Origin: Pseudomonas putida
Lineage (GTDB): Bacteria > Pseudomonadota > Gammaproteobacteria > Pseudomonadales > Pseudomonadaceae
Length of the DNA stretch: 64,000 bases
NCBI RefSeq assembly: GCF_005080685.1
Contig: NZ_CP039371.1
Span: forward strand, 6,324,001-6,388,000
Direction of reading: 5' to 3'
The translations under genes and the position numbers were made by a program. Positions 10,813-11,675 of the stretch are shown piece by piece (positions within the stretch are counted from its first letter, which is position 1; each line of letters begins with the position of its first letter). The notes under the pieces are model-generated. The model was not told where the DNA came from, made no database searches, and saw nothing but the letters and a program-made list of their open reading frames with translations.

Positions 10813-10840
10813 GGGGGCATGGCGGTAGATTTTTAGCGGC

Positions 10841-10874
10841 CTCAAGATCGAGCGCCGCGCGGGCGGCGCTCGAT
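10841..10874. repeat. Flanking hairpin repeat, copy A
   Basis: A 12-bp perfect stem (10847-10858 with 10863-10874, loop GCGG) preceded by CTCAAG. Copy B at 11548-11581 has identical arms. A shared CAGGCACAT follows each copy at a variable distance. The two copies bracket the structured-RNA region and lie 707 bases apart in the same orientation. Confidence 0.85.
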
Positions 10875-11092
10875 GTCTGCCTGTCCACATCACCTGAGCC
10901 AGGCACATGCCCGCCCAGCCCGATTTCCGGTCAGGCCCATCTGCATCGGCCCAGTTCGCCACTCGTTCAGCAGCATCCTACATAACCACGCACACTTTCT
11001 TACGGAATCGATTTGCCCCGCGATTTACCCTACAAACCGTGTCGACGCCCGTCTGATTGTCCAGGGGAAGCCTGATCTCTAGGCTGACCTGG

Positions 11093-11249
11093 TCGCTGTT
11101 GGTTCAGCGATCGGGTGTGGAAACCCGAGTACTAATCGGAACGGTTGTCGCTATGGCAGCTGTACGCGGGAGGCCAAATGGCCTGCCGGGGTTCCGATAG
11201 CCCGGCTTTCCACTCCGCGTACAGCCGCCACCCTTCGTGTGGAAACGAA
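11093..11249 (+). ncRNA. Candidate structured leader RNA with pseudoknot
   Basis: The sequence folds compactly by eye. Hairpin 1 is TCGCTG/CAGCGA (11093-11110). Hairpin 2 is TCGGGT/ACCCGA with hexaloop GTGGAA (11111-11128). A 14-bp closing stem, with one mismatch, pairs 11155-11169 with 11215-11229. It encloses AGGCC/GGCCT (11171-11184) and GCCGGG/CCCGGC (11185-11206). The last loop, GTTCCGAT (11191-11198), is the exact complement of ATCGGAAC (11135-11142) and could form an 8-bp pseudoknot. A final hairpin TTCGT/ACGAA (11234-11249) repeats the GTGGAA loop. A GGAG ribosome site and TTG start follow at 11274 and 11285. I cannot name an Rfam family; a cis-regulatory leader is the best inference. 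Confidence 0.6.
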
Positions 11250-11284
11250 AGTTGCCGGTCAACATCATCTATCGGAGTTTGACC

Positions 11285-11435
11285 TTGAAAAAAATCGTTC
11301 CAGATCCCCCGCTTCGCCCAACCACCCAACACGCTCTCGACCGCTGCGATGCAGGTCAATCCGCACGCAGTGGAATTGGCAGATGTATGGGTCGAGGTGC
11401 TGTTGGATGGCATTGAGTCACAACCCGTGACGTGA
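11285..11435 (+). pseudogene. Decayed small gene behind the structured leader
   Basis: From a TTG start with GGAG 7 bases upstream, frame 1 encodes LKKIVPDPPLRPTTQHALD and then runs out in unrelated sequence, stopping at 11416. The next frame over the same region encodes a helix-like tail (VELADVWVEVLLDGIESQPVT) and stops at 11435. The KKIVPDPP opening and amphipathic tail resemble the small DUF3077-type proteins common in Pseudomonas, but the middle is missing, so I read this as a remnant with a deletion or frameshift. Family assignment is from memory and tentative. Confidence 0.4.
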
Positions 11436-11513: not shown

Positions 11514-11537
11514 GCCTCCAGGCGCATGCCGGGAGGC
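11514..11537. terminator. Hairpin downstream of the remnant gene
   Basis: GCCTCC-a-GGC GCAT GCC-g-GGAGGC forms a 9-bp interrupted stem. No T-run follows. The rest of 10813-11730, outside the entries listed, shows nothing I can identify. Confidence 0.45.
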
Positions 11538-11547
11538 CTATGGCGCC

Positions 11548-11581
11548 CTCAAGATCGAGCGCCGCCCGCGCGGCGCTCGAT
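11548..11581. repeat. Flanking hairpin repeat, copy B
   Basis: Same CTCAAG head and same 12-bp arms (11554-11565 and 11570-11581) as copy A at 10841-10874; only the four-base loop differs (CCGC against GCGG). Confidence 0.85.
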
Positions 11582-11675
11582 CTCAATGCCACTAGAAATC
11601 TCCAGGCTTACACCTGCGCGCACCACCTTAAATCTCCCGCCAGGCACATCCCCCCCCAAAAAAAATCCGCACAAA

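Follow-up and report, generated by a model that had tools for sequence, protein, structure and literature searches.

What is the compact, structured RNA that precedes a small and apparently broken gene in Pseudomonas putida (contig NZ_CP039371.1), and what would it control? The stretch of DNA analysed, called the window here, comprises 64,000 nucleotides (positions 6,324,001 to 6,388,000 of the contig), and all feature coordinates are window positions on the forward (+) strand. C4 antisense-RNA switches are a kind of control first known from phage P1, where C4 control is known as a phage lysis-lysogeny switch. The C4 RNA is about 77 nt long, is cut from its precursor by RNase P and represses its target in trans. 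We propose, with a probability of about 0.87, that positions 11079-11279 are a control region built on a C4-type antisense RNA, as in P1 and P7, and that the small DUF6124/DUF3077-type gene behind it later broke. Because its RNA elements appear undamaged while its coding part does not, the window copy is most probably a unit in decay, one of a chromosomal family of about 30.

The identity of the RNA follows from Rfam. The first-pass annotation had found no Rfam family to name, but two families exceed their cut-offs in this region. The C4 antisense RNA family (RF01695) matches 11149-11235 with 68.8 bits against a cut-off of 45, and its model is fully covered (1-87). The C4 a1/b1 target family (RF03163) matches 11079-11131 with 47.9 bits, narrowly over its cut-off of 46.7. 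The parts of the unit begin with a candidate promoter (11057-11085), judged by eye in a stretch common to the leaders, which consists of TTGTCC (11057-11062), a 17-base gap and TAGGCT (11080-11085); a consensus scan of this region for a sigma-70-type promoter returned none. Within RF03163, a hairpin at 11092-11111, placed by the Rfam alignment, lies 5' of the a1 hairpin (11112-11127), whose target site a1, GTGGAAA (11117-11123), is the complement of the antisense segment a'. Target site b1, ATCGGAAC (11135-11142), follows at an interval of 12 bases from the C4 RNA. The mature C4 RNA is predicted to span 11155-11232, with end points taken from an alignment with the c4 of phage P1, and would have 78 bases where that of the phage has 77. 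Its P1 stem (11154-11230, with arms at 11154-11170 and 11214-11230) encloses the P2 hairpin (11171-11184), the P3 hairpin (11185-11206) with the antisense loop b' (11191-11200), and the antisense segment a', TTTCCAC (11207-11213), which complements both GTGGAAA loops. The second of these loops is target site a2 (11239-11245) in the a2 hairpin (11234-11249). Target site b2 (11269-11279) lies over the ribosome site, GGAG at 11274-11277, and can form 11 pairs with b' when G-U is included, 8 of them consecutive Watson-Crick pairs.

All features listed in the first-pass annotation were present where it had placed them. The same loop occurs twice (GTGTGGAAA at 11115-11123 and at 11237-11245), the 8-base complement between ATCGGAAC in b1 and GTTCCGAT (11191-11198) in b' is exact, the long stem around two hairpins spans 17 Rfam-model positions of which one is an A-C mismatch, and the GGAG stands 24 bases past 11249. 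Loop b' has a second complement, TCCGATAG (11193-11200) against CTATCGGA (11269-11276), across the ribosome site. Judged by these complements, the supposed pseudoknot is the antisense loop b' set against site b1, and the twin GTGGAA loops correspond to target sites a1 and a2 of the C4 RNA.

The structure is far more stable than expected from composition, since the fold of 11080-11290 has -97.5 kcal/mol against a shuffled mean of -73.5 (sd 4.85, z -4.94) and 0 of 200 dinucleotide shuffles fold as stably. Covariation was measured over 36 loci, 30 from the same genome and 6 from other species. Standard pairs make up 93.2% of the stems against a shuffled mean of 83.2, in a structure that was drawn from the window and the Rfam model and is hence favoured over slid controls. 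None of five covariation measures was reached by any of 500 shuffles. The compensatory changes in homologues on which the claim of a selected RNA had been staked beforehand were found, with both sides changing at 28 of 43 pairs. By stem, this was seen at 6 of 7 pairs in the hairpin 5' of a1, at 10 of 17 in P1 (97.5% of cells paired), at 5 of 5 in P2, at 1 of 5 in P3 and at 4 of 5 in the a2 hairpin, which is the weakest stem (77.1% of cells paired). The three C4 stems P1, P2 and P3 are thus maintained by compensatory change, with little variation in P3. The Rfam matches, the shuffle test and the covariation together bear out the view that this is a selected RNA structure and not chance or a plain REP. 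REP-like repeats are found at 10814-10877 and 11521-11584, are 81% alike over 64 bases, and only flank the unit, outside its bounds.

The gene behind this RNA is best understood from its relative L113, a locus of another Pseudomonas whose leader is 80% identical to that of the window over 289 bases. In the window, the head of the first ORF (11285-11416; TTG start, 43 codons, KKIVPDPP) lacks a middle stretch present in L113. The tail (11349-11435, ending ...DGIESQPVT) lies in another frame and is similar to how L113 and the alignment A1 proteins end. The L113 gene is open, encodes 97 aa and scores 29.6 bits against a cut-off of 27 and 24.2 against 21 (DUF6124/DUF3077; PF19619, PF11275). By alignment with L113, the window gene is assigned as a DUF6124/DUF3077-type remnant; because the frame is open there and interrupted here, the window holds an intact-looking RNA and an apparently broken gene. 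A search for a DUF3077 ORF behind the window C4 gave no match, and the window copy lacks the P1-type layout, in which a C4 is followed by two ORFs, the first of them small and open.

The window unit has many sisters. The same genome has at least 30 C4 matches, all over cut-off and spread from 0.37 to 6.47 Mb, among 150 scored of 2179 candidates. A small first ORF with a PDPP-like (KIVPDPP-like) head follows 28 of the 30 listed C4 units and is absent at 2 loci; 20 of these ORFs have at least 78 aa and 8, the window's included, are under 50 aa. In 24 of the 30 units a DUF3077 match follows on the same strand at a distance of up to 1,200 bases, and all 25 DUF3077 matches listed (genome total 27) come after a C4. 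Likewise, all 23 sites in this genome that encode KIVPDPP with at most 1 mismatch lie 50-65 bases past a C4, and a reversed-pattern control in this genome gave none. Units L006 and L012 are 7 kb apart and encode an identical first ORF, and L017, L021 and L024 lie inside 4 kb near 1.94 Mb; both the pair and the group show signs of local duplication.

The association extends to other genomes. In sets of 20 loci each, taken from those fetched and mostly one per genome, a C4 lies 49-68 bases upstream of KIVPDPP in 20 of 20 and upstream of DUF3077 in 19 of 20 (all but L177). These loci and the sister units bear out the tie to DUF3077-type genes of pseudomonads that the first-pass annotation had proposed. 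A C4 is present in 110 of 119 sampled Pseudomonas genomes, including this one, with a median of at least 13 per genome; at most 33 candidates were scored per genome, so copy numbers are minimum values, and 16 genomes stand at 33. Across the class, C4 was found in 24 of 369 genomes drawn, this one included, with at most 11 candidates scored per genome and copy numbers that are lower bounds. Among 40 genomes searched for both C4 and DUF3077, 30 have DUF3077 and all 30 of these have C4, 6 have C4 only and 4 have neither. Exact KIVPDPP occurs in 20 of 59 Pseudomonas genomes, so the distribution of C4 is wider than that of this partner. The loci of the class search (L084-L111) mostly have other ORFs behind the C4, so KIVPDPP is not a partner of C4 in general. 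The top Rfam scorers (L031-L060) are consensus-biased and were excluded from all rates, and many of them precede other ORFs. In a number of these other-Pseudomonas loci (L031-L034, L044, L047, L048, L050, L051, L055, L058, L039, L041-L046, L049) the C4 often stands before a 52-54 aa ORF (xALNPS...) or a 150-aa anti-repressor-like ORF. The best-scoring loci are probably classic prophage C4 units.

The fit of the antisense segments to their own targets differs from site to site. A run of at least 7 between a' and a1 is found at 30 of 30 loci of this genome, and a' is complementary to a2 at 29 of 30. The a boxes of these units fall into 15 CTGTCAA, 8 TCTCAC, 5 TTCCAC and 2 others (n=30), and with so few types specificity would lie mainly in b'. 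Watson-Crick runs of at least 7 between b' and its own ribosome site occur at 21 of 26 loci, whereas mismatched combinations give 17 of 650, and 0 of 20000 permutations did as well. This test covers 26 of the 30 loci, since L002 and L017 have no ORF and L022 and L027 were missed by the motif. In other species the same match is found at 9 of 17 loci against 8 of 272 mismatched combinations and 0 of 20000 permutations, for the 17 of 20 loci that remain after L142, L143 and L161, in which the script found no P3. The loop b' is strictly best for its own ribosome site at 18 of 26 loci of this genome and at 7 of 17 in other species. Separation is blunter when G-U is allowed (25 of 26 own against 168 of 650 mismatched combinations in this genome), and when duplex energy is computed for the entire P3 arm, 9 of 30 C4 RNAs score best on their own target. 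The weakest site is b1, which b' matches at 14 of 30 and 9 of 26 loci of this genome and at 3 of 17 in other species, where 162 of 20000 permutations are equally good. Across sister units, b' tracks its own b2. The predicted occlusion of the ribosome site by b' is well supported by this covariation.

The order a1, b1, C4, a2, b2 and small ORF is the same in the window and in the immI operon of P1/P7 (c4-icd-ant1/ant2). The annotated phage P1 record lists promoters, a1, b1, a 77-nt c4, a2, b2, icd and ant1, and the spacing between a2 and the start codon is similar to that of the window. The b1-to-C4 distance is 66 bases in the phage instead of the 12 of the window. The P1 a box TTGACAG, with the complement CTGTCAA, is the same in 15 of the 30 units, whereas that of the window is GTGGAAA. 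Unlike P1/P7, the Pseudomonas units are chromosomal, occur many times per genome and encode KIVPDPP and DUF3077/DUF6124 proteins. The second ORF is an anti-repressor in immI and a DUF3077 ORF in most sister units, and a search for anti-repressor similarity among sister-unit proteins, made without Icd and Ant themselves, matched no anti-repressor family.

The action of C4 in P1 is the basis for the block that we predict at b2 (PMC8198154, PMC8546580 and PMC5320573, each as far as its accessible text goes). A working unit would be transcribed as a single RNA with a1/b1, the C4 RNA, a2/b2 and the gene, from which C4 would be excised and then fold. The segment a' would dock on the GTGGAAA loop and b' would pair with the ribosome site b2, so that translation of the first ORF would be blocked. 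A second ORF, where present, would be blocked too, via coupling or early termination. We infer transcription, processing, repression and coupling of the units from this comparison. ORF spacing was measured in 15 sister units, with L021 and L022 having a short first ORF. A 4-base overlap of the two ORFs, like that of icd and ant1 in P1, is found in L013, L026, L029 and L030, and an 8-base overlap in L028. A gap of 4 bases separates the two in L014 and L019, and one of 149-223 bases in 8 of 15. Overlap or close spacing is confined to part of the units, and icd-ant-like coupling is therefore plausible in those only.

Another leader of similar build is isrK-orf45-anrP of the Salmonella prophage Gifsy-1, in which, according to the accessible part of the source, IsrK activates translation in trans and a leader RNA and short ORF are followed by a second ORF overlapping by AUGA (PMC4825925), a layout that resembles the C4 units. 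The window differs in that it has no Rfam isrK match above cut-off, and isrK was rejected as the identity of its RNA. Three of 40 scanned loci (L148, L160, L186) have an isrK match (RF01394) that overlaps their a1/b1 region, which suggests that isrK and C4 leaders may be related.

For the family as a whole, a further reading stands at a little under even odds: Pseudomonas chromosomes would harbour phage-immunity-type operons that have been amplified and domesticated, reaching 30 or more per genome in certain species. In every small KIVPDPP/DUF3077 operon a dedicated C4 would act as the lock, and joint change of b' and ribosome site would leave these parallel RNA locks largely insulated from each other. 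The set would perhaps be toxin-antitoxin-like, or could serve as heteroimmunity memory against elements that carry matching sites.

That the sister units are outright toxin-antitoxin-like modules, with growth-harming small proteins and the C4 RNA as antisense antitoxin, is doubtful. Small proteins under a self-matched antisense RNA in many copies fit this idea, as does their frequent breakage (first ORF under 50 aa in 8 of 30 units and absent in 2). Icd of P1, which occupies the corresponding position, acts on FtsZ to block division, according to the part of PMC11897509 available. This analogy makes a growth-inhibiting role worth testing but does not itself count as evidence. A comparison that left out Icd itself showed no similarity to a known toxin, PADLOC gave no match for the 3 proteins given to it, and the sister-unit proteins matched no family of known function. 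Their predicted folds are plain two-helix hairpins with no significant matches. A separate observation comes from an evolved furfural-tolerant P. putida, reported to carry a one-base insertion in a DUF3077 gene whose annotation is that of a pseudogene (PMC9630843, accessible portion).

The window C4 might instead be kept as a free trans-acting sRNA that regulates sister units or incoming elements, with the broken gene irrelevant. Its RNA looks intact despite the broken gene, the short-ORF units L008, L015, L016, L020, L021 and L024 also retain b'/b2 pairing, and the TTCCAC-type a box is common to 5 of 30 units. The precedent is Group 1 of Acinetobacter baumannii, 21 C4-like sRNAs (15 of them full length) in which read coverage is higher across the C4 part, and like our genome it has many C4-type RNAs on one chromosome (PMC5320573, in its accessible text). 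In the same text those sRNAs have no identified cis target and vary mainly in a', whereas 28 of 30 units here stand before a small ORF whose ribosome site b' fits, and b' varies most. By exact matching, the a2+b2 pair of the window C4 has a single occurrence in the genome, within the unit's own leader, and b' is mostly private to its unit. Recent decay accounts equally for an intact RNA, and a free sRNA is unlikely.

It is quite improbable that the window unit is the remnant of a prophage immunity region. The site order is that of P1, and some other-Pseudomonas C4 loci precede anti-repressor-like ORFs, with a phrog_2977 match (E 8.2e-6) for one 60-aa piece. PHROG 36471 matches the DUF3077 ORF of L004 (E 3.7e-46), so some virus-labelled sequence carries such an ORF, and about 100 bases of C4 core are common to one phage and two plasmids. 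Against this, the neighbours of the window unit are an antiporter gene and an isochorismatase-like gene, and the antiporter is also found upstream in L113 (86% identity over the compared part). The upstream neighbours of ten chosen sister units (of 30) belong to transport, channel, receptor or metabolic families in nine cases and to an N-acetylmuramidase in one. No match to the L004 DUF3077 protein or the L113 protein turned up among 50,697 phage records, and viral contigs gave none for the former. In our reading the units are phage-type control elements that form a family on the chromosome and may have had a mobile or prophage origin. The ligand- or protein-binding leader (riboswitch) proposed at first, which a compact conserved fold ahead of a gene would suit, is hardly tenable, because Rfam assigns antisense families, C4 target and antisense sites account for the repeated loops and the 8-base complement, and b' varies between units in step with its target as a ligand pocket would not.

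The C4-type control region of the window thus belongs to an RNA family that is already known, and what is apparently new, as not found in print, is the scale and the partner. The main texts of the literature searched gave no description of C4 with the DUF3077 family in Pseudomonas, and the additional file of Weinberg 2010 (PMC2864571) may say more. C4 control emerges as a dispersed chromosomal family across Pseudomonas that is tied to DUF3077/DUF6124 proteins, and these orphan families thereby gain a regulatory context. With about 30 natural antisense-target pairs in one cell, it also offers material for learning how RNA regulators stay apart.
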